23,141 nt of DNA, taken from positions 1 through 23,141 of the IMG/VR virus record IMGVR_UViG_3300045922_000782; one strand, given 5' to 3'. How positions within the stretch are numbered: position 1 is the first letter of the stretch; each line of letters begins with the position of its first letter. Of the stretch, positions 3 to 21,992 are shown in pieces. The DNA comes from a virus. Both the position numbers and the translations under genes were made by a program. The notes under the pieces are model-generated. The model made no database searches. It saw only the letters and a list, made by a program, of their open reading frames with translations, and was not told the DNA's origin.

Positions 3-962
3 GAAAATGAATATTCAAAATCATATAAAGAGCCTGATTTTGAATTTGATAAGCAATTACGAGTTGATGAACAATATATAAGTAGTTTACCAGATTTACA
101 AAATGGACATGCTGCTTTAATTCAAGGCGCCCCTGTAGCAATTCAACAAGTTGGAATTCATAATTTTCGATTACCATTACGATATTCTCGCAAAAACAAC
201 CCTATACCTTTGGAATTAGAAACTTCAGTTACAGGTACTGTATCGTTAGAAGCTCATAAAAAAGGTATTAATATGTCTCGCATTATGAGAACTTTTTATG
301 AATATAAAGATGAAGTATTCACTTTAGAAACAGTAAGACAAATCTTAAATTCATATAAAGAAAAACTTGGTTCTTTTGAAGCAAGAATAATGATGAAATT
401 TTCTTACCCTATTATTCAAAAATCATTGAGAAGTGGATTAGAAGGGTATCAATATTATGATGTTTGTTTTGAAGTAGATATGGATAAAGATGGTAATACA
501 AAAGAAATATTACATTTTGATTTTGTATACTCTTCTGCTTGTCCGTGTTCATTTGAGTTAGCTGAACATGCTCGCAAATATAGAAACAAAGCAACTGTAT
601 CTCACTCTCAACGAAGTGTAATGAGAGTCTCAATTGATTGTGCAAAAATGATATGGATTGAAGATTTGAAAGATTTGTGTTTAGAAGCTCTTCAAACAGA
701 AACTCAAGTTATGGTTAAAAGAGAAGATGAACAAGCTTTTGCAGAGTTAAACGGTTCTTATTTAAAATTTGTTGAAGATGCAGTAAGATTAGTGTACAAG
801 TCTTTAAGTAACAATCCCGATATCAAAGATTTTAAAATAATTGCTTCTCATAATGAAAGTTTACATAGCCATAACGCTATTGCAGTTATTACTAAAGGAA
901 TACCTGGAGGGTTTGATCATACAGTATCGAGAGAAGATTATAATGTATTAGGTAGTAGATAG
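3..962 (+). CDS. folE2: GTP cyclohydrolase IB (FolE2), 5' end outside window
   Basis: FolE2 is the zinc- or other metal-dependent GTP cyclohydrolase that converts GTP to 7,8-dihydroneopterin triphosphate, the entry step to folate and to 7-deazaguanines (queuosine, preQ0-type DNA bases). The frame is open from base 3 to the TAG at 960-962 (319 codons). It carries the family hallmarks: LPDLQN near the N terminus, QQVGIHNFRLPLRY, the KGINMSR stretch, SSACPCSFELAEHAR with the metal/active-site cysteine region, and HSHNAIA near the C terminus. A TTG at 210 is not the real start, because conserved FolE2 sequence lies upstream of it; the start is probably just before the window. In phages this enzyme commonly feeds 7-deazaguanine DNA modification, but no que/dpd gene is in view, so that role is inference. 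A mobile element begins 4 bases after the stop codon and leaves the gene intact. Confidence 0.93.
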   Translation, partial: ENEYSKSYKEPDFEFDKQLRVDEQYISSLPDLQNGHAALIQGAPVAIQQVGIHNFRLPLRYSRKNNPIPLELETSVTGTVSLEAHKKGINMSRIMRTFYEYKDEVFTLETVRQILNSYKEKLGSFEARIMMKFSYPIIQKSLRSGLEGYQYYDVCFEVDMDKDGNTKEILHFDFVYSSACPCSFELAEHARKYRNKATVSHSQRSVMRVSIDCAKMIWIEDLKDLCLEALQTETQVMVKREDEQAFAELNGSYLKFVEDAVRLVYKSLSNNPDIKDFKIIASHNESLHSHNAIAVITKGIPGGFDHTVSREDYNVLGSR

Positions 963-965
963 TTA

Positions 966-1274
966 GTGAACTGCCTATAATCTAAAGAATTATAGGCTTC
1001 CTGCAAAGTAAACTTTGCAATACATTAGTATTTATTACTAATGGCTCGTTCACAGAAGCAAGCTAGTTATATTGATAATAATTTATCAATAATTAAAACT
1101 AATAATATTACAGTGAAACTGTAATTCATATTCTATTTACCCTGAATATGGAGGGTTTTATATAAATATAAAATTTTTAAAACAATAACTAAATTATTTG
1201 TACTTTTTTTTTAAAAAAATATACCCAAATTTATTCTAAAAGCTAAAGACTTTTAGGTTTTCTTTGAGAGTTTT
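966..1274 (-). mobile_element. Element A: TnpB-less IS605-type element with omega-RNA-like hairpins
   Basis: 309 bp on the minus strand. The right end (966-1062) is a near copy of the 3' end of the tnpB gene at 20036-21256, including the terminal hairpin and the GAAGCC...AGTTCACT-type end. The segment 1107-1155 matches tnpB bases 20815-20868, so the element is an internally deleted tnpB copy. The left-end hairpin is at 1236-1256, and TTTAT (minus strand, 1279-1275) adjoins the left end as a candidate target/TAM. No ORF remains. Hairpins at 1127-1150 and 1107-1125 pair as in tnpB but with compensatory changes. The base next to the right end is the folE2 tail, so a guide segment would read the last bases of folE2. 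Confidence 0.8.
1236..1256 (-). repeat. Left-end hairpin of element A
   Basis: Imperfect palindrome CTAAAAG...CTTTTAG, shared with the left ends of the elements at 16410-16627 and 21277-21496. It is the expected TnpA recognition hairpin of IS200/IS605 elements, set about 18 bases inside the TTTAT-adjacent end. Confidence 0.7.
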
Positions 1275-1315
1275 ATAAAATTAAATTAATATATTAAACA
1301 AAAAAAAATAACAAA

Positions 1316-12967: not shown

Positions 12968-12986
12968 AATATTTTTTTTAAAAAAG

Positions 12987-13020
12987 TTGTTTGGTTGTTT
13001 ATTTTAATATATCTTTAGGG
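12987..13020 (+). promoter_or_regulatory. Promoter P1, flavobacterial type
   Basis: TTG at 12987-12989, exactly 20 bases, then TATCTTTAGGG at 13010-13020. It matches the flavobacterial TTG / TAnnTTTG consensus. Nearly the same 48 bases recur at promoter P2. It points into the structured non-coding RNA. Confidence 0.72.
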
Positions 13021-13289
13021 CAATAAATTAAAAACAATAATTTTAATTATCAGTTTCTCTATTATTTGTTCTTAACTTAGTTAAGGGTAAAAAAAATAAC
13101 AAATAATAATGAGAACTGTTATGTGTAAAACCTCAGCTAGCAGTTTTAGTTTTAGTTGATATAATTAGAATTAAAAAGAAATATTAACTAATAACTCTAA
13201 AAAATTTAAAGATTCAAACTCCTAGCACAAAATTACACATAATGTTAAACTCTTTCTTAGAACCCCTGTTTTACGGGGGTTTTTTTTTG
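13021..13289 (+). ncRNA. Structured non-coding RNA of about 270 nt
   Basis: The 381-base gap between genes holds a promoter, a highly paired region and an intrinsic terminator, with no plausible ORF. Stems seen by eye: 13051-13070 with 13098-13118 (about 19 pairs), enclosing hairpin 13071-13076/13080-13085. Then a nested arm: 13119-13128 with 13233-13242 (10 perfect pairs), 13136-13146 with 13216-13226 (10 of 11), and 13153-13162 with 13181-13190 (10 pairs, one G-U). The RNA does not match tRNA, tmRNA, RNase P or 6S as far as I can judge. Function is unknown. Confidence 0.7.
13261..13289 (+). terminator. Intrinsic terminator of the structured RNA
   Basis: Stem ACCCC (13262-13266) with GGGGT (13276-13280), followed by a run of nine T. 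It closes the transcript from P1 just before P2. Confidence 0.85.
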
Positions 13290-13298
13290 TTTAAAAGG

Positions 13299-13332
13299 TT
13301 GTTTGGTTACTTACTTTAACATATCTTTAGGG
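13299..13332 (+). promoter_or_regulatory. Promoter P2, flavobacterial type
   Basis: TTG at 13299-13301, 20 bases, TATCTTTAGGG at 13322-13332; close copy of P1. It lies 17 bases before the ATG of the phosphatase gene, so the leader is very short. Confidence 0.75.
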
Positions 13333-13348
13333 TAATAAATTAAAACTT

Positions 13349-15628: not shown

Positions 15629-15828
15629 TAATAGTTAAACTTCCTGGTAAAATTGTATTACCTGAAAATATAGCACGAGCATATTTAACACAAATTGAAT
15701 CAGCTTATATTGATACTAAAAAAAAATGGGAATTAGAATTTACAAAATTAAAACCTGAGCACAAAAGATATTTACAGGACATGGAAGAGAAAATTAATTT
15801 ATTACGTCAACAATTAAAGATAAATTAA
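15625..15828 (+). CDS. Hypothetical protein, 67 aa
   Basis: Not recognised. Short basic protein: an N-terminal strand (MIIVKLPGKIVLPENIARAYL) followed by one long charged helix with Leu/Ile spacing (KKWELEFTKLKPEHKRYLQDMEEKINLLRQQL), likely a coiled coil. Coupled to the upstream gene by a four-base overlap. Confidence 0.6.
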   Translation: MIIVKLPGKIVLPENIARAYLTQIESAYIDTKKKWELEFTKLKPEHKRYLQDMEEKINLLRQQLKIN

Positions 15829-15860
15829 CCTAGTTCACTCTTTTTAAATTAAATAGAAAG

Positions 15861-15894
15861 TTGGATTATCAGAAATAAGTTTATAATTTTAGGG
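15861..15894 (+). promoter_or_regulatory. Promoter P3, flavobacterial type
   Basis: TTG at 15861-15863, 20 bases, TAATTTTAGGG at 15884-15894. Same spacing and GGG(T)AA downstream as P1 and P2. It points to the attenuator-like leader and the tRNA genes. Confidence 0.68.
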
Positions 15895-15932
15895 TAAGAA
15901 ATTAAACAATTAATATATTTATTTAAAAAAAA

Positions 15933-16016
15933 ATGAAAACAAGTGTTAACATATCACGTATTGCGATAATCGCACCGGAAGATTGCGAGCGTAATAGGGG
16001 TTTGTTAACAACTTAG
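15933..16016 (+). CDS. Possible leader peptide ORF, 27 aa
   Basis: ATG at 15933, TAG at 16014-16016; reads MKTSVNISRIAIIAPEDCER then NRGLLTT. The middle uses codons that are rare elsewhere in this window (GCG, CCG, TGC, GAG, CGT, AGG), so either the RNA structure constrains it or it is a codon-sensing leader. It spans the first two arms of the attenuator-like region. There is no direct evidence for translation. Confidence 0.35.
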   Translation: MKTSVNISRIAIIAPEDCERNRGLLTT

Positions 16017-16084
16017 TTAATCATTATAAATAAAATATTAAATGTTAACAAACCTCTTAGAACAACACCTAAGAGGTTTTTTAT
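15940..16084 (+). promoter_or_regulatory. Attenuator-like leader upstream of the tRNA genes
   Basis: Three arms share the palindrome TGTTAACA: 15944-15951 (arm 1), 16003-16010 within arm 2 (15999-16010), and 16043-16050 within arm 3 (16043-16054). Arm 2 pairs perfectly with arm 3 over 12 bases. Arm 3 overlaps the 5' side of the terminator (16051-16060) by four bases, so 2:3 pairing and the terminator exclude each other, while 1:2 pairing would free the terminator. Another hairpin lies between arms 1 and 2: TCGCA (15970-15974) with TGCGA, enclosed by ATTGCG with CGTAAT. This is the geometry of classical attenuation; the alternative is a discrete small RNA ending at the terminator. Confidence 0.5.
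16051..16084 (+). terminator. Intrinsic terminator / attenuator
   Basis: Perfect 10-bp stem AACCTCTTAG (16051-16060) with CTAAGAGGTT (16069-16078) and a T run after it. It lies between promoter P3 and the tRNA genes. Confidence 0.85.
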
Positions 16085-16090
16085 TATTTT

Positions 16091-16304
16091 AAAATTATTA
16101 TATTTATATAAAACTTTCCATATTCAAGGTAAATAGAATATGAATTACAATTACAATTGTAATATTATTAGTTTAATTATTGATAAATTATTATCAATAC
16201 AACTAGCTTGCTCTCGTGAACGAGCCATTAGTATTTACTACTAATGTATTGCAAATTAAACTTTGCAGGAAACTTATAATTCTTTAGATTATAGGTAGTT
16301 CACT
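16091..16304 (+). mobile_element. Element B: left-truncated TnpB-less IS605-type element
   Basis: Plus-strand relative of element A, reading toward the tRNA genes. Segment 16204-16304 matches the tnpB 3' end (21172-21273) and 16103-16163 matches tnpB 20803-20868. The left-end hairpin seen in element A is missing; similarity stops near 16091 next to the terminator, so it may no longer be mobile. Retained hairpins: 16119-16125/16136-16142, 16144-16151/16156-16163, an ATTGATAA/TTATCAAT hairpin, CATTAGTA/TACTAATG, TGCAAA/TTTGCA and the terminal right-end hairpin. The base after its end is 3 bases from the tRNA-Pro start. Confidence 0.75.
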
Positions 16305-16307
16305 TAC

Positions 16308-16402
16308 AAGGATGTGGAGACAATTGGTAGTCGACTTGATTTGGGATCAAGAAAGTAGGTATTTTAAAGCCGAAAATGCAGGTTCGAGTCCTGTCATCCT
16401 TA
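16308..16402 (+). tRNA. tRNA-Pro(TGG) with long variable arm
   Basis: Acceptor AAGGATG/CATCCTT, anticodon arm CTTGA-TTTGGGA-TCAAG giving TGG, and T arm CAGG-TTCGAGT-CCTG. It is unusual for Pro: about 27 bases lie between the anticodon and T arms and can form a 7-bp extra stem (GTATTTT/AAAATGC). The D arm is irregular. Elements B and E flank it. Confidence 0.75.
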
Positions 16403-16409
16403 CAATAAC

Positions 16410-16627
16410 AGTGAAGTGTTTAAAAACTAAAGGCTTTTAAACTTCTTGGTTCGTAGATTCTTTTATTAAAGATATCTCCCCAAGCTCTACCCCACCTCCC
16501 GTGGGTGAATAATTATATGTAAATAGTATATTTTTTAAATTATTTATATTTTTTTTAAAAAAAAAGAAATTTAATTCTCAAATTCATCCTAAAAGCTAAA
16601 GACTTTTAGGTTTTCTTTGAGATCTTT
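16410..16627 (-). mobile_element. Element E: TnpB-less IS605-type element, second family
   Basis: 218 bp on the minus strand, filling the gap between tRNA-Pro and tRNA-Asp. The left-end hairpin is at 16588-16610 and TTTAT (minus strand, 16632-16628) adjoins the left end. The right end carries a hairpin and the CACTTCACT terminus. It is a close relative of the element at 21277-21496, with which it shares the hairpin CCCAC-GGGAG-GTGGG and the following GTAGAGCTTGGGGAGATATC almost unchanged. A short frame ending in E-S-T-N-Q-E-V looks like the last codons of a lost tnpB (the family often ends S-M-x-Q-E-A). Confidence 0.75.
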
Positions 16628-16635
16628 ATAAATTA

Positions 16636-16710
16636 CAGCTGCGGCGCATAACGGTTGGTGCACTCGACTGTCTCTCGAGAGTTAGAGGGTTCGACTCCCT
16701 TCGTAGCTGC
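16636..16710 (+). tRNA. tRNA-Asp(GTC)
   Basis: Acceptor CAGCTGC/GTAGCTG, anticodon arm CTCGA-CTGTCTC-TCGAG, T arm GAGGG-TTCGACT-CCCTT. Base 37 is T, which is unusual. It begins 3 bases after the TAM-like flank of element E. Confidence 0.8.
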
Positions 16711-16725
16711 TAAAAAAAATATATA

Positions 16726-16905
16726 ATGAACATTGAAGAAATAAAATGGGGTGATTTAACTATAATTATTAATAATTGTAATAATAATTATGTTGCTGAA
16801 ATTAAACAACATGTTAATATTAGAGTAAAAGCTACGGAAAGAGAACAAGCTTTAAAACAAATTAAAGAGTTGTTTCTTTATATGCTAAGTAACAGGTTAA
16901 TATAA
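16726..16905 (+). CDS. Hypothetical small protein, 59 aa
   Basis: ATG at 16726, TAA at 16903-16905, ending 2 bases before tRNA-Ala. Reads MNIEEIKWGDLTIIINNCNN, then a beta strand (YVAEIKQHVNIRVKATEREQA) and a C-terminal helix (LKQIKELFLYML). A compact beta-beta-alpha pattern and ordinary codon use make it plausible. No family recognised; small ORFs between phage tRNA genes are common. Confidence 0.5.
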   Translation: MNIEEIKWGDLTIIINNCNNNYVAEIKQHVNIRVKATEREQALKQIKELFLYMLSNRLI

Positions 16906-16907
16906 TT

Positions 16908-16982
16908 GGGCTACATCTCGAAGGCAGAGCACTTGTTTTGCACACAAGTGAAAATAGTTAGGTTCGATTCCTACGTAGTCCA
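16908..16982 (+). tRNA. tRNA-Ala(TGC)
   Basis: Acceptor GGGCTAC/GTAGTCC, short D arm CTC/GAG, anticodon arm CTTGT-TTTGCAC-ACAAG, T arm TAGG-TTCGATT-CCTA, discriminator A. No encoded CCA. Confidence 0.85.
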
Positions 16983-16992
16983 CAGTAACTAT

Positions 16993-17066
16993 GTCCCGTT
17001 AGAATAGTGGTCGAATTCGCTCGCCTTTCACGCGAGAGATCATGGGTTCAAATCCCATACGGGATA
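16993..17066 (+). tRNA. tRNA-Glu(TTC)
   Basis: Acceptor GTCCCGT/ACGGGAT, anticodon arm CTCGC-CTTTCAC-GCGAG, T arm ATGGG-TTCAAAT-CCCAT, discriminator A. Confidence 0.9.
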
Positions 17067-17073
17067 CTAATCA

Positions 17074-17150
17074 TTCTCATATAGCTCAGTTGGTTTAGAG
17101 CACTTGTCTGATATACAAGAGGTCGCAAGTTCGAATCTTGCTATGAGAAC
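17074..17150 (+). tRNA. tRNA-Ile(GAT)
   Basis: Acceptor TTCTCAT/ATGAGAA, D arm GCTC/GAGC, anticodon arm CTTGT-CTGATAT-ACAAG, T arm CAAG-TTCGAAT-CTTG. Confidence 0.9.
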
Positions 17151-17183
17151 ATTTTAATAATTAATATTAATTGTTTTATTATT

Positions 17184-17309
17184 ATGAAAGCAGTAGAAAA
17201 AGAAATAGAAGTCATTAAGTTTGAATATTATTTAGAAAAAGAAGAAAAACTTAAAAGACGTAGATTACGTAAATGTTTGATGATTAGAAAAATTTTTAAA
17301 TTAAATTAA
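17184..17309 (+). CDS. Hypothetical basic small protein, 41 aa
   Basis: ATG at 17184, TAA at 17307-17309, ending directly before tRNA-Val. An acidic helix (KAVEKEIEVIKFEYYLEKEEK) is followed by a strongly basic tail (LKRRRLRKCLMIRKIFKL), which could bind RNA or a membrane. No homologue recognised. Coding status rests on codon use and fit into the gap. Confidence 0.4.
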   Translation: MKAVEKEIEVIKFEYYLEKEEKLKRRRLRKCLMIRKIFKLN

Positions 17310-17382
17310 TTCCTTGTGGTGTAGTGGTTAAGCACGATATTCTTACAAAATATAGACCTGAGTTCGATTCTCAGCAAGGAAA
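17310..17382 (+). tRNA. tRNA-Val(TAC)
   Basis: Acceptor TTCCTTG/CAAGGAA, anticodon arm ATATT-CTTACAA-AATAT, T arm TGAG-TTCGATT-CTCA, discriminator A. Confidence 0.88.
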
Positions 17383-17398
17383 CTTAAATTAAAAACTA

Positions 17399-17584
17399 AT
17401 GAATACACAAATGTTAATTGGGTTAGATAGTACTACTGCTAAACAAATTTGCTTAAACAGTGGGTTTAAAATAATTTTACTACTTCCACAAGAAGAAGTA
17501 AAAGAAACAACTTATAACTATAACCCTAAAAAAATTACATTGTTTAAAAAAAATAACATTATAACTAACGTAATAGTAGGATGA
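17399..17584 (+). CDS. Small protein resembling peptidase inhibitor I78
   Basis: 61 residues with the spacing of I78 family inhibitors: an N-terminal LIGLDSTTAKQICLNSGFKI segment (Gly, Ala, then a Gly before a strand), a variable middle, then T-x-x-Y-NPKKITLF and NxIITNVIVG, equivalent to the family's DYRPxRINLxxD..xIxxVxxG. Those proteins adopt the potato-inhibitor-I fold and inhibit serine proteases. A phage could use one against a host or superinfection-linked protease, but that is inference. The stop overlaps the next ATG by four bases. Confidence 0.5.
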   Translation: MNTQMLIGLDSTTAKQICLNSGFKIILLLPQEEVKETTYNYNPKKITLFKKNNIITNVIVG

Positions 17585-18276
17585 AACATACTTTTGTTTG
17601 CATTAGTGATACACATTCAAAACATAAAGAAATTCCGCAGAAACAATTAAAATCTGCAGATTTTATTATACATGCAGGTGATATTAGTAATCGTGGATTT
17701 GAATATGAAATAAGAGATTTTCTAAATTGGTATTCTGGATTAAACCAATATACTTATAAAATTTTAATTGCAGGAAATCATGATTTCTTTTTTCAAGATT
17801 ATAAAGAACCAACAAGAGAGTTGTTAAAAGAGTATCCTAATATAATTTATTTAGAAAATGAAAGTATAGAGATTGAAAATATTAAGTTTTGGGGAAGTCC
17901 AATTCAACCTACTTTTTTTAACTGGGCTTTTAATGTAGATAGAGGAGAAAAGATAAGGCAATATTGGGATATGATTCCTCATAACACGGATATTGTAATT
18001 ACACATGGACCAGTTTATAAACAATTAGATTTAGTAATTAATGAATATAGTTCTAATAATGGAGAGCATGTAGGGTGTGAAGAGTTGGGTAAAAGATTAC
18101 AAATTATTAAACCGATAATACATATAAGTGGTCATATACATTGCGGAAGAGGGGTTTCGCAAACTGATAATACAGCGTTTATTAATGCTTGTATTTTAGA
18201 CGAGGATTATAAAGTAGTTAATTGGCCGATTTATTTTGAATTAGAAAATAAAAAAATAATTAATATTGAATATTAA
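17581..18276 (+). CDS. Calcineurin-like metallophosphoesterase
   Basis: 231 residues carrying all five metal-site motifs of the metallophosphoesterase fold: DTH (D10, H12), AGD (D34), GNHD (N66, H67), THGP (H142) and GHIH (H185, H187). Overall pattern is that of the UPF0046/MPPED-type branch of the family, with the ISDTHSKH start and the SGHIHCGRG end. It hydrolyses phosphodi- or phosphomonoesters; the substrate cannot be told. It sits among tRNA genes and is coupled to the I78-like ORF, so an RNA-end role is conceivable but unproven. Confidence 0.85.
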   Translation: MKHTFVCISDTHSKHKEIPQKQLKSADFIIHAGDISNRGFEYEIRDFLNWYSGLNQYTYKILIAGNHDFFFQDYKEPTRELLKEYPNIIYLENESIEIENIKFWGSPIQPTFFNWAFNVDRGEKIRQYWDMIPHNTDIVITHGPVYKQLDLVINEYSSNNGEHVGCEELGKRLQIIKPIIHISGHIHCGRGVSQTDNTAFINACILDEDYKVVNWPIYFELENKKIINIEY

Positions 18277-18279
18277 ATT

Positions 18280-18352
18280 TCTCTCGTAGTTCAGTGGTAA
18301 GAACAGGATACTTATACTATCAAGGTCAAAGGTTCGATTCCTTTCGAGAGAA
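18280..18352 (+). tRNA. tRNA-Ile(TAT)
   Basis: Acceptor TCTCTCG/CGAGAGA, D arm GTTC/GAAC, anticodon loop CTTATAC within GGATA/TATCA (one mismatch at the base), T arm AAAGG-TTCGATT-CCTTT. The anticodon TAT reads AUA directly; most bacteria use a CAT anticodon modified to lysidine. Confidence 0.82.
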
Positions 18353-18358
18353 CAAAAC

Positions 18359-18434
18359 GGGTGTGTGGTCTGAGTCAGGTTTAGGCGTTACGCTGCAAAC
18401 GTAAATTAGATAGGTTCGAATCCTATCACACCCT
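18359..18434 (+). tRNA. tRNA-Cys(GCA)
   Basis: Acceptor GGGTGTG/CACACCC, D arm GTCT/AGGC, anticodon arm TTACG-CTGCAAA-CGTAA, T arm ATAGG-TTCGAAT-CCTAT. Confidence 0.88.
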
Positions 18435-18500
18435 CTAATAAAAAAACACCTTTAAAAACAATTGTTTTACAAAAAAAAATATATTTAATTTTAAATTATA

Positions 18501-18623
18501 ATGTGGATCAATGCATTAATATTTTCAGTTACTATGATATTATTAGTAATTTTTTTAGGAACCCCTAAAAAAGACAATAATTGTAAATGTAACGATTGTA
18601 AGTGTAAAAAAGATGAAAAATAA
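18501..18623 (+). CDS. Small membrane protein with Cys-rich tail, 40 aa
   Basis: ATG at 18501, TAA at 18621-18623. An N-terminal hydrophobic helix (INALIFSVTMILLVIFLG) is followed by a lysine-rich tail with four cysteines spaced CxC-x2-CxC (NCKCNDCKCK). This could bind a metal at the membrane face. Not recognised; the clear membrane segment supports it being real. Confidence 0.5.
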   Translation: MWINALIFSVTMILLVIFLGTPKKDNNCKCNDCKCKKDEK

Positions 18624-18627
18624 AATT

Positions 18628-18729
18628 ATGAATATGATAACCTTATTAACATGGCGCTCGAGTCAACATATGACGTTGATTGAATCGGGGTTATTTTGTA
18701 TTTATATATTATTTGACATTTTAATATGA
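18628..18729 (+). CDS. Possible leader ORF, 33 aa, in second attenuator-like region
   Basis: ATG at 18628, TGA at 18727-18729 (MNMITLLTWRSSQHMTLIES then GLFCIYILFDILI). A second frame inside it, 18651-18683, encodes MALESTYDVD and stops 3 bases before the antiterminator-like arm at 18687. The stretch 18651-18690 is much more GC-rich than its surroundings. Whether either frame is translated cannot be told. Confidence 0.3.
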   Translation: MNMITLLTWRSSQHMTLIESGLFCIYILFDILI

Positions 18730-18790
18730 CATTATAGAGAAATAAAAAGAAATTACAAATAACCCTGATAACTTCAGGGTTATTTTTTTT
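18637..18790 (+). promoter_or_regulatory. Second attenuator-like leader, before tRNA-Trp
   Basis: ATAACC (18637-18642, arm 1) can pair with GGTTAT (18689-18694, arm 2). GGGTTATTT (18688-18696, arm 2) pairs perfectly with AAATAACCC (18757-18765), which is the 5' arm of the terminator (18757-18768 with 18774-18785). A local hairpin TCAAC-ATATGAC-GTTGA lies between arms 1 and 2. The three mutually exclusive pairings repeat the layout of the leader at 15940-16084. Confidence 0.45.
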
Positions 18791-18792
18791 TT
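18757..18792 (+). terminator. Intrinsic terminator / attenuator before tRNA-Trp
   Basis: 12-bp perfect stem AAATAACCCTGA / TCAGGGTTATTT with a 5-base loop and a run of T. It lies inside the tRNA cluster, six bases before tRNA-Trp. Confidence 0.85.
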
Positions 18793-18797
18793 TACAC

Positions 18798-18868
18798 GCA
18801 CCTTTAAGATAATGATAGTCGCTTAAGCTCCAACCTTAAGAGTGAGGGTTTGATTCCTTCAAGGTGTG
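18798..18868 (+). tRNA. tRNA-Trp(CCA)
   Basis: Acceptor GCACCTT/AAGGTGT, anticodon arm TTAAG-CTCCAAC-CTTAA, T arm GAGGG-TTTGATT-CCTTC, discriminator G as expected for Trp. D arm is poor. Confidence 0.8.
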
Positions 18869-18874
18869 CTAAAT

Positions 18875-18966
18875 AGAGAGTTGGGGGAGTTGGCTTAACC
18901 CAATGGTTTGCTAAACCATCATACCTTTTAAAAAAGGTATCATCAGTTCGAATCTGATACTCTCTG
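18875..18966 (+). tRNA. tRNA-Ser(GCT)
   Basis: Acceptor AGAGAGT/ACTCTCT, anticodon arm ATGGT-TTGCTAA-ACCAT, long variable arm ATACCTT/AAGGTAT, T arm TCAG-TTCGAAT-CTGA, discriminator G. Confidence 0.9.
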
Positions 18967-18973
18967 CTAAAAC

Positions 18974-19045
18974 GCTCTTATAGTTTAGTTGGTAAAATAC
19001 TTGTCTTGTAAACAAGAGTCGTCAGATCGTAACTGACTAGGAGCT
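18974..19045 (+). tRNA. tRNA-Thr(TGT)
   Basis: Acceptor GCTCTTA/TAGGAGC, anticodon arm CTTGT-CTTGTAA-ACAAG, T arm GTCAG-ATCGTAA-CTGAC. Confidence 0.87.
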
Positions 19046-19062
19046 CATGTGAAATATAATTT

Positions 19063-19148
19063 GGAAAGTGAACAGAACAATGGAAGTTCGCCTTGTCTTG
19101 AAAACAAGTGGTACTTACGGGTATGGGGTTCGAGTCCTCCGCTTTCCG
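19063..19148 (+). tRNA. tRNA-Ser(TGA)
   Basis: Acceptor GGAAAGT/GCTTTCC, anticodon arm CTTGT-CTTGAAA-ACAAG, long variable arm, T arm GGGG-TTCGAGT-CCTC, discriminator G. Confidence 0.87.
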
Positions 19149-19162
19149 CAATTTTTTTTTAT

Positions 19163-19237
19163 GGGTTAATAAGTGTAATTGGTTATGCACACAAGTCTGT
19201 GAAACTTGTAGATCGAGTTCGAATCTCGAATTAACCC
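19163..19237 (+). tRNA. tRNA-His(GTG)
   Basis: Encoded G-1 opposite C73 (acceptor GGTTAAT/ATTAACC), the identity feature of tRNA-His. Anticodon arm CAAGT-CTGTGAA-ACTTG, T arm CGAG-TTCGAAT-CTCG. Confidence 0.9.
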
Positions 19238-19245
19238 CTATATTT

Positions 19246-19319
19246 GGCCTTATAGTTTAATTGAAAAAACATCTGAATACGAATCAGAAGACGTCTAGGT
19301 TTGAATCCTAGTAAGGCTA
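19246..19319 (+). tRNA. tRNA-Arg(ACG)
   Basis: Acceptor GGCCTTA/TAAGGCT, anticodon arm TCTGA-ATACGAA-TCAGA, T arm CTAGG-TTTGAAT-CCTAG, discriminator A. Confidence 0.88.
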
Positions 19320-19324
19320 CACAT

Positions 19325-19395
19325 CGCGATATAGTATAATGGTAGTACGATACCCTCATAAAGTATAGGTTCTAATTCGATTTTAGATATCGCGA
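19325..19395 (+). tRNA. tRNA-Met(CAT)
   Basis: Acceptor CGCGATA/TATCGCG, anticodon loop CTCATAA, T arm TCTAA-TTCGATT-TTAGA. The paired first position argues against initiator; lysidine-type Ile is unlikely as a separate Ile(TAT) is present. Confidence 0.8.
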
Positions 19396-19434
19396 CAATC
19401 ATTAATTTTTTTCATATATTTAAAAAAGAGTATA

Positions 19435-20035: not shown

Positions 20036-21256
20036 GTGAAAACATACTCTATTAGATTATTTCCAACAGCAGAGCAAGAAAAGACACTATATCGTCTTTC
20101 ATCTATTCGTTGTGAAATATATAATAGTTTACTCCAAATTCAACAAAGAAAATACGCAGAAACCAAAAAAATATTTAATAGGTTTGATTTAATTAACTTG
20201 CTACCAACTCTCAAGAAAGAAGAAGCTAATAAACATTGGAGTGAATTAAATTCAAAAGCAATACAAACTATTGCAACAGAATTGTCACAAAACTATCAAT
20301 CTTTCTTTTCGTTAATTAAAAAAGATAATAAAGCAAAGCCTCCAAGAGAAATTGATAGTACTAAATTTCACAGTATAACCTTTAATCAATCTGGTTGGGC
20401 ATTTCGTGATAATAACATCATAGTATTGAATAGAATATCAATTAAATTTAAAGGCCAGTTTGATAATGTTAAAGATTTACCTATTAAAGAGGTTCGTTTG
20501 AAATTAGTTAATGAAAAATGGCTTTTAGATTTAGTAGTAGATGATAAACAAATCTTTTCCGATAAAAAAGAAATAAGTACAAAGGTTCTTGCATTAGATT
20601 TGGGATTAAAGAGATTAGCGACAGGAGTAGATAATAGTGGTAATCAAGTTATCATTTTAAACAAAAGTAAGAAGATAAATAAATATTTTTGTAAACACAT
20701 TGATAAAATTAAGTCAAAATTATCTAAAAAAGTTAAAAACTCACGCTCATATAAAAGACTTAATAATGTGAAACGAGAATTATACAAAAAGAAGAATGTG
20801 CAAATAAAACAAACTCTCCATACTCAGAGTAAAAAATTAGTGAGTATGAATTACAATACTATTGTAATTGGCGACTTAAGAGTTAAAAAACTAATAAAAA
20901 AAAGAAATAATTCGATTAAAGGTATTCGTAAATCATTTAGCGAATCTAATATTTCGATGTTTCTTTCTATGTTAGCATACAAATCTCAAGCAAAACAACA
21001 AAGTGTGATAAAGATAAATGAAACACATACCACACAATTGAATTGCTTGACAAATAAATTGTTTGCAAACAAAGTTGATTTAACTCAACGTGAAGTTGAA
21101 GTCGCACCAGGTTTAGTCATTGATAGAGATTTAAACTCAGCTTTAAATATATTGAAGCGCTATCAAGACAACCATCTTGCTTCTGTGAACGAGCCATTAG
21201 TAGTTACTACTAATGTATTGCAAAGTTTAATTTGCAGGAAGCCTATAATTCTTTAG
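20036..21256 (+). CDS. tnpB: TnpB RNA-guided nuclease, atypical
   Basis: 406 residues, GTG start. N-terminal wedge/REC region (SIRLFPTAEQEKTLYRLSSIRCEIYNSLL) and the RuvC domain: LALDLGLKRLATG (D188), second motif TIVIGDL at 275-281 where the usual Glu is Gly279, and third motif VIDRDLNSALNI (D363). The zinc-finger segment, usually CxxC...CxxC, is THTTQLNCLTNKLF...REVEVAPGL, with only C337 left. It therefore belongs to a divergent group with a shifted catalytic Glu (E329 in INET is a candidate) or is inactive as a nuclease. TnpB cuts DNA next to a TAM using an omega-RNA made from the 3' end of its own gene and the right end. Its last codons run through the right-end hairpins. Confidence 0.85.
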   Translation: MKTYSIRLFPTAEQEKTLYRLSSIRCEIYNSLLQIQQRKYAETKKIFNRFDLINLLPTLKKEEANKHWSELNSKAIQTIATELSQNYQSFFSLIKKDNKAKPPREIDSTKFHSITFNQSGWAFRDNNIIVLNRISIKFKGQFDNVKDLPIKEVRLKLVNEKWLLDLVVDDKQIFSDKKEISTKVLALDLGLKRLATGVDNSGNQVIILNKSKKINKYFCKHIDKIKSKLSKKVKNSRSYKRLNNVKRELYKKKNVQIKQTLHTQSKKLVSMNYNTIVIGDLRVKKLIKKRNNSIKGIRKSFSESNISMFLSMLAYKSQAKQQSVIKINETHTTQLNCLTNKLFANKVDLTQREVEVAPGLVIDRDLNSALNILKRYQDNHLASVNEPLVVTTNVLQSLICRKPIIL

Positions 21257-21273
21257 ATTATAGGTAGTTCACT
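20815..21273 (+). ncRNA. Candidate omega-RNA scaffold within and after tnpB
   Basis: Hairpins 20819-20825/20842-20848 and 20850-20857/20861-20868, then CATTAGTAG/CTACTAATG, TGCAAA/TTTGCA and the right-end hairpin 21242-21263. The same hairpins are kept in the non-coding elements A and B, which lack the DNA between about 20870 and 21165. Exact ends are not determinable here; the guide would begin at 21274. Confidence 0.6.
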
Positions 21274-21276
21274 TAT

Positions 21277-21496
21277 AATTTTACAAAGAAAACCTAAAAG
21301 TCTTTAGATTTTAGGATGAATTTGGAAATTAAATTTCTTTTTAAAAAAAAAAAAAATATAAATAATTTAAAAAATTATACTATTTACATATAAATATTCA
21401 CCCACGGGAGGTGGGGTAGAGCTTGGGGAGATATCTTCAATGGAAGAATCTATGAACCAAGAAGCCTAAAAATTTTTAAATTATAGGTACTTCACT
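21277..21496 (+). mobile_element. Element D: TnpB-less IS605-type element, second family
   Basis: 220 bp starting 3 bases after the right end of element C, same orientation. TTAT at 21273-21276 adjoins the left end; left-end hairpin CCTAAAA...TTTTAGG at 21293-21315; right end terminates GTACTTCACT. Hairpin CCCAC-GGGAG-GTGGG (21401-21415) and the following 20 bases are nearly identical to element E. A residual frame at 21441-21469 (MEESMNQEA, stop) resembles a TnpB C terminus. Confidence 0.78.
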
Positions 21497-21502
21497 AAAA
21501 AC

Positions 21503-21537
21503 AAAAAACCCTGAAGCACTCACCTCAGGGTTTTTTT
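21503..21537 (+). terminator. Intrinsic terminator after element D
   Basis: 12-bp stem AAAAAACCCTGA / TCAGGGTTTTTT with T run. Its stem core is the same CCCTGA/TCAGGG as at 18757. The segment just after the end of element D runs into its 5' arm. Confidence 0.85.
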
Positions 21538-21564
21538 ATTTTCCTTTTATCTAATTTAGAATTT

Positions 21565-21636
21565 TGCCTTGTAGTGAAATTAGCATCACGATTGATTTTG
21601 GCTCAATAGTTCCACGGGCGGAGCGTGGCAAGGCAA
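21565..21636 (+). tRNA. tRNA-Gln(TTG)-like gene with abnormal T loop
   Basis: Acceptor TGCCTTG/CAAGGCA, D arm GTGA/TCAC, anticodon arm ATTGA-TTTTGGC-TCAAT (TTG), T stem CCACG/CGTGG. All four stems are perfect, but the T loop is GGCGGAG instead of TTCRANN. Confidence 0.65.
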
Positions 21637-21690
21637 CAAAAACAAAAGATACAAATTATGAATAATTTAATTTTTAAAAAAAAAACAAAC

Positions 21691-21774
21691 AGGCTAGTGA
21701 TGAAATTGGTAGTACATGACAGACTTAAAATCTGTTGAGCATTGCTCGTGTAGGTTCGAGTCCTACCTAGCCTA
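21691..21774 (+). tRNA. tRNA-Leu(TAA)
   Basis: Acceptor AGGCTAG/CTAGCCT, anticodon arm ACAGA-CTTAAAA-TCTGT, long variable arm GAGCATTGCTC, T arm TAGG-TTCGAGT-CCTA. Confidence 0.9.
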
Positions 21775-21781
21775 CTATTTT

Positions 21782-21865
21782 AGGGATATGATGAAACTGG
21801 TAGTACATACTAGTCTTAGAAACTAGTGCTAATTAAGCGTGTGGGTTCGAATCCCACTATCCCTA
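21782..21865 (+). tRNA. tRNA-Leu(TAG)
   Basis: Acceptor AGGGATA/TATCCCT, anticodon arm CTAGT-CTTAGAA-ACTAG, long variable arm, T arm TGGG-TTCGAAT-CCCA. Confidence 0.9.
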
Positions 21866-21992
21866 CTTAAAGTTTTTAAAACTTGCTTCATAAGTTTTTA
21901 ATGTTTTGTCTAAAAACATTAAAAAAAAAGAAAATACGAAGAGTTAAAGAAAAAAATACGATTCATAAGGTTACTTTCTCACTATAAATAAT

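Follow-up and report, generated by a model that had tools for sequence, protein, structure and literature searches.

The reason for tRNA use by phages and its timing have been argued over for decades. The locus considered here puts this question in a concrete form: could a short open reading frame (ORF), combined with alternative RNA pairings and a terminator, allow a phage to switch on its own tRNA genes when tRNAs run short? Such a reading had been proposed in an initial annotation for positions 15861–16084 of the window, by which we mean the whole stretch of 23,141 nucleotides that was analysed.

The window and its tRNA genes

The window is a 23-kb record and its carrier is an unplaced tailed phage. 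Its baseplate genes have distant kin in Flavobacterium immuto phages and in Microcystis phage Mel-JY01. Protein and DNA searches found no close relatives of the window, an alignment search returning only distant ones (~29% identity), and an Rfam scan of the window gave chance matches only. We counted 17 tRNA genes, 16 detected by ARAGORN and one, tRNA-Ser(TGA) at 19063–19149, found with a relaxed threshold and previously overlooked. They are arranged as follows:

16308–18435, plus strand: tRNA group 1 (Pro, Asp, Ala, Glu, Ile-GAT, Val, Ile-TAT, Cys; ARAGORN)
18798–19396, plus strand: tRNA group 2 (Trp, Ser-GCT, Thr, Ser-TGA, His, Arg, Met; ARAGORN and, for Ser-TGA, the relaxed threshold)
21691–21866, plus strand: tRNA-Leu TAA and TAG, also sampled by leader 2 (see below)

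Group 1 is interspersed with small ORFs and an IS605-type remnant. The tRNA-Leu pair lies 2.3 kb beyond group 2, from which it is separated by another terminator. The region 21503–21690, between mobile elements and the tRNA-Leu pair, contains a terminator followed by a GC-rich potential hairpin (TTGCCTTG...CAAGGCAA) and is possibly a third control region.

Leader 1 and its surroundings

The region in front of group 1, referred to as leader 1, consists of the following elements:

15861–15890, plus strand: P3, promoter-like (TTG-N20-TAATTTTA, then GGGTAA), relaxed Bacteroidota consensus, resembling sites near 12995 and 13306
15933–16016, plus strand: leader 1 ORF, MKTSVNISRIAIIAPEDCERNRGLLTT, 27 codons with a putative start, covering 7/8 downstream tRNAs in ten codons
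15941–15952, plus strand: arm 1, partner of arm 2, predicted to favour termination
about 15951–15989, plus strand: putative sensing codons
15996–16010, plus strand: arm 2, partner of arm 1 or arm 3
16043–16057, plus strand: arm 3, predicted antiterminator partner of arm 2
16050–16084, plus strand: intrinsic terminator (stem 16050–16079 and T run)

The structural part of the initial annotation held up well. The palindrome TGTTAACA, said to be carried by three arms, is found at 15944, 16003 and 16043 and has exactly three copies in the window; a GC-containing 8-bp palindrome occurring three times within 110 nt was seen in 0/60 shuffled windows. For arms 2 and 3, which had been described as pairing over 12 perfect bases, we obtained 15 pairs (with G-U), 12 of them consecutive Watson-Crick pairs, and none of 1000 shuffles produced a 12-pair helix. 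Since the shuffles reproduce neither the palindrome triplet nor the helix, the pairings of leader 1 are beyond chance. A search with the paired-palindrome pattern returned scattered inverted repeats. Arm 3 does overlap the 5' arm of the terminator, and the proposal that pairing of arms 1 and 2 would free the terminator agrees with the modelled folds, in which this pairing is the ground state of leader 1 and the terminator then forms (P 0.99). The fold of leader 1 as a whole has a z-score of -6.8. The 27-codon ORF is present as annotated, its stop codon starting 3 nt past arm 2, and it does contain rare codons (ATC 3%, GCG 6%, CCG 8% and CGT 10% of synonyms). However, their rarity and GC-richness, which had been taken as the mark of sensing, do not play that role: the codons are marked by being decoded by the downstream tRNAs, and common codons such as GAA, GAT and ATT are also among them.

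P3, which had been called as a promoter, fits the relaxed Bacteroidota consensus, and TTTAGGGNAA is common to P3 and the two upstream sites near 12995 and 13306. In the regions 15800–16310 and 18430–18800, the strict Bacteroidota consensus has no match, and the relaxed one has just two, at 15861 and 18462, each upstream of a leader. An alignment of the P1 and P3 regions showed that the promoter is common to both and the body is not. The region 12980–13345 contains a P3-like promoter, then a structured transcript of ~270 nt, whose fold has a z-score of -4.7 and which includes a serine-rich ORF of 16 codons (13109–13159), and a terminator; a second P3-like promoter copy in the same region precedes a gene for a SpoIIE-type phosphatase.

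Leader 1 and tRNA-Pro are separated by 220 nt that include a mobile-element remnant (16081–16306), overlooked earlier. It belongs to a series of IS605-type copies:

16081–16306: IS605-type element copy
16402–16626, minus strand: IS605-type element copy
962–1286, minus strand: IS605-type element copy
21284–21496: IS605-type element copy
20036–21276: IS605-type element copy

Overall, the tRNA genes are interspersed with a TnpB-type (OrfB_IS605) gene, together with its right end, and with short deletion derivatives of that element, at least four in number; the right end of one copy abuts tRNA-Pro at 16308. A candidate terminator at 16588–16610 turned out to be the end hairpin of an IS605-type derivative. 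We also considered leader 1 as the left end of an IS605-type element and rejected this, the element homology beginning only at 16081, at the terminator end.

A second leader in front of tRNA-Trp

A second leader with the same anatomy, absent from the initial annotation, precedes tRNA-Trp:

18462–18493, plus strand: promoter-like site (TTG-N21-TAATTTTA), relaxed Bacteroidota consensus
18627–18644, plus strand: arm 1, pairing with 18687–18706
18628–18729, plus strand: leader 2 ORF, MNMITLLTWRSSQHMTLIESGLFCIYILFDILI, covering all 7 near tRNAs and Leu; alternative start at 18613
about 18643–18681, plus strand: putative sensing codons
18684–18706, plus strand: arm 2 (18684–18696 pairs with arm 3, 18687–18706 with arm 1)
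18757–18793, plus strand: arm 3 (18757–18769) and intrinsic terminator (stem 18757–18785 and T run)

Arms 2 and 3 form a 13-bp helix (18684–18696 with 18757–18769) that lies on the 5' arm of the terminator. The terminator stem is 12 nt away from tRNA-Trp; therefore, this tRNA has no room for a promoter of its own and would have to be reached by readthrough of the terminator. Between the promoter-like site and leader 2 there is a 40-codon ORF (18501–18623), whose product combines a hydrophobic segment with a tail rich in cysteine (NCKCNDCKCKK).

Correspondence between leader codons and tRNA genes

Leader 1 reads ISRIAIIAPEDCER and covers seven of the eight tRNAs of its own group (Pro, Asp, Ala, Glu, two Ile, Val and Cys); leader 2 reads LLTWRSSQHMTLI and covers eight of nine (Trp, two Ser, Thr, His, Arg, Met and two Leu). 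The tRNAs of the other group are covered much less, two by leader 1 and one by leader 2. Counted by codons, own-group and other-group matches are 11/14 vs 3/14 for leader 1 and 11/13 vs 1/13 for leader 2. Isoacceptors are sampled separately, the two Ser boxes by AGT and TCG and the two Ile types by ATA and ATT/ATC. When all six frames were scanned in stretches of ten codons free of stops (~22,000 in total), seven set 1 tRNAs were covered over leader 1 and nowhere else, and seven set 2 tRNAs over leader 2 and nowhere else; the two sets had been drawn from the leader positions and fixed once the pattern had been seen. In other words, each leader peptide of the window spells the tRNAs encoded behind it. 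Tests on other loci based on architecture only are free of such a post hoc choice of tRNA sets.

Leaders selected by architecture

For these tests, leaders were selected by a rule that ignores codons: an ORF of 12–60 codons, a stop codon with a terminator of 8 bp or more starting 18–36 nt after it, and a tRNA behind the terminator. Applied to named phages and 120 IMG/VR loci collected by a tandem-tRNA pattern, the rule gave 26 non-redundant leaders including those of the window, all with an intrinsic terminator between leader and tRNAs. In 24 of the 26, frame 0 matches the tRNA array better than frames +1 and +2 (p = 9e-6). Compared with permuted arrays, frame 0 favours the leaders' own arrays with z = 6.2 (p = 1e-5), or z = 5.55 without the window; for the control frames +1 and +2, z is below zero.

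The RNA pairings follow the same distribution. Complementarity of arms 2 and 3 is significant in 21/29 leaders vs 1/22 leader-like ORFs at non-tRNA terminators, and that of arms 1 and 2 in both window leaders and in 7/29 leaders overall. Across all leaders the stop codon lies 20–35 nt from the terminator, and in several of them the gap between terminator and first tRNA is about 7–14 nt, so that a separate tRNA promoter does not fit there. An independent promoter for the tRNA genes, one of the counter-cases raised in the initial annotation, is thus unlikely for leader 2 and many homologues.

A second set of 100 further loci from a pattern scan yielded nine architecture matches, three of them near-identical; together, the nine gave no significant result in the own-array test (p = 0.30). 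The arm-positive leaders of this set match their own tRNAs in 4/4 cases (p 0.001–0.017, combined 1e-6) and the arm-negative ones do not, a split that counts as support and not as a clean replication because the arm filter was chosen post hoc, with the first result known. When the best ORF was scored at all array heads with no architecture filter, 11/27 heads with a terminator reached p<=0.05 vs 23/402 without one, the latter being a weak enrichment.

Leaders in named phages and cellular genomes

The clearest parallel is found in Cellulophaga phage phi4:1, which has three leaders, each with its own tRNA group. MKIQRLHLQELEQP is followed by Pro, Glu, Gln, His, Leu, Leu and Arg tRNAs, LTKTGITVIDKTKGAR by Ala, Lys, Ile, Gly, Met, Asp, Thr, Val, Arg and Met, and MKTNYCTYNNSNWSFSY by Tyr, Ser, Asn, Trp and Phe. 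Own-group codon matches are 10/12, 12/16 and 10/16, vs 0–3 for the other groups. In two of the three, a promoter-like stretch, TTTG-N20-TATGTTTG, ends beside the leader ORF. A 634-kb phage (LR745206) carries MTTMNLNMTMNLTLNVVNITLCNIR ahead of Asn, Arg, Leu, Val, Ile, Thr and Met tRNAs, and in Vibrio phage D69 an ORF with SHSICSQSAQHSARYNAFNSW stands ahead of twelve (Ser, Tyr, Ile, Ala, His, Phe, Arg, Ser, Cys, Trp, Gln, Asn). The layout also occurs in many IMG/VR contigs and unrelated phages. By strict criteria, array heads with a leader are a minority (22/433 and 9/275), though these criteria lose true cases such as the second phi4:1 leader; applied to the tRNA regions of T4, T5, Acinetobacter phage 133, Munch and Aeromonas phage TSW001, they turned up no leader.

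Cellular genomes gave two independent architecture matches at tRNA arrays. On a cellular contig from a Bacteroidota sample (L339, reverse strand, 1008–1139), a 43-codon leader-like ORF with a terminator has codons for 5/5 downstream tRNAs (Cys, Arg, Asp, His, Pro); this locus may be a prophage.

Position of the sensing codons and proposed mechanism

We modelled a ribosome, with its edge at 15 nt, at each codon in turn. As soon as the ribosome covers arm 2, there is an abrupt drop in the modelled probability of arm 2 engaging the terminator's 5' arm before synthesis of the 3' arm. In leader 1 the predicted drop falls at codons 19–20, which is the end of the sensing codons, and leader 2 behaves alike. 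In the 26 leaders taken together, the array is matched by 53% of the codons lying upstream of this point and by 28% of those past it (p = 1.6e-5), and the fall is sharp, within about two codons. According to this model, the placement of matching codons is the geometry that a stalling-based switch requires. Since a finished terminator usually wins at equilibrium in the modelled folds, the switch must be kinetic.

On this basis we propose the following scheme. The short ORF would present about one or two codons for every tRNA encoded behind it, with arm 2 and the stop codon coming next. With plentiful tRNAs, the ribosome would reach the stop codon and cover arm 2, the terminator would form, and the tRNA genes would stay off. 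Scarcity of a sampled tRNA, or of its charged form, would make the ribosome stall upstream of arm 2; arms 2 and 3 would then pair, the terminator would come too late, and the polymerase would enter the tRNA genes. In the window leaders, the hairpin of arms 1 and 2 would favour termination also when the ORF is untranslated. The result would be a feedback loop by which the phage turns on a tRNA group when one member runs short, for example because of codon demand late in infection or host tRNA-cutting defences. The sequences directly show the anatomy, the codon-to-tRNA match and its position, and the recurrence in other phages; that the promoters are used, the ORFs translated, ribosomes stalled and terminators read through, and what triggers this in the cell, we infer. 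The second copy in the window, the leaders elsewhere and the codon-to-tRNA match all back the originally proposed tRNA-shortage attenuator, and we put at roughly 85% the probability that each leader is a ribosome-mediated transcription attenuator of the tRNA genes behind it. Several observations count against this reading: the equilibrium advantage of the finished terminator, the small share of leaders with significant pairing of arms 1 and 2, the overall result for the second set of loci, the minority of array heads with a leader, and the distance and element remnant between leader 1 and tRNA-Pro.

Relation to known systems and alternative explanations

Ribosome-mediated attenuators include those of E. 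coli trp and his, the multi-residue thr and ilvGMEDA leaders, and pheM before pheST. The leaders described here resemble attenuators of amino-acid operons in having an ORF with regulatory codons, an arm 2:arm 3 antiterminator opposed to an intrinsic terminator, and a stop codon just past arm 2. They differ in their targets, which are phage tRNA genes rather than biosynthesis or synthetase genes, and in their composition: instead of repeating codons for a single amino acid or a small number of them, one leader represents as many as a dozen tRNAs, each by about 1–2 codons. As a transcription switch responding to tRNA state, such a leader would also be akin to a T-box riboswitch. However, T-box RNA binds uncharged tRNA directly, whereas the predicted sensor here is a translated ORF, and a T-box covariance model has no match in the window at either the gathering level or a relaxed threshold.

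The attenuators might instead respond to amino-acid starvation or a general slow-down of translation, with the tRNA match serving to tune sensitivity. Charged tRNA is indeed the signal for known leader-peptide attenuators (PMC1183508), and to a ribosome the loss of a tRNA and starvation look alike. We nevertheless regard this as unlikely: many amino acids are sampled at once, in a way that tracks the tRNA genes of the leader's own group and fits tRNA supply better, and isoacceptors are distinguished (two Ser boxes, two Ile types).

Another explanation, and a much less probable one, is that P3 gives rise to an independent, structured small RNA of ~195 nt that is always terminated, with the ORF and the alternative pairing as by-products of its long hairpin. 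The very strong fold of leader 1 would suit it, as would the short structured transcript at 13015–13290, which likewise comes with the P3 promoter motif and a terminator. Yet it leaves unexplained the codon match, its frame specificity and position, as well as leader 2, whose tRNA-Trp lacks space for a promoter. Finally, although leader 1 contains many rare codons, and serving such codons is a role often ascribed to phage tRNAs, it is hardly conceivable that leaders and tRNAs agree solely through shared enrichment in host-rare codons, given that leaders within one genome match their own segment and not others, that common codons are among those sampled, that off-frame controls fail and that matching ends at the ribosome-occlusion boundary.

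Biological implications

The attenuation mechanism proposed for these leaders is of a known kind; what is new is its target, phage tRNA arrays, and the composite leader for many tRNAs. A search of open-access full text, with subscription journals and most preprints outside its scope, found no prior description of such phage tRNA leaders. When anticodon nucleases or retron effectors deplete host tRNAs, phage-encoded ones take their place (PMC10264068, PMC11555353), and a strong phage tRNA promoter has been described (PMC11555353); the main text of neither paper mentions leaders or attenuation. Countering tRNA-targeting defences would be a plausible purpose for expressing tRNAs on demand. Judging from the sequences, it is rather probable that in tailed phages of several unrelated lineages leader peptides each sample the tRNA group behind them, and that losing any single one of these tRNAs, say to a host anticodon nuclease, would turn on its replacements.

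The leaders suggest that some phages gauge the supply of those tRNAs for which they carry genes and bring these into use when needed, and one composite sensor would read up to about a dozen tRNAs. The sequence rule obtained here can serve to find putatively regulated arrays and to predict which tRNAs a phage would monitor, and the question of phage tRNA use becomes directly testable, tRNA by tRNA.
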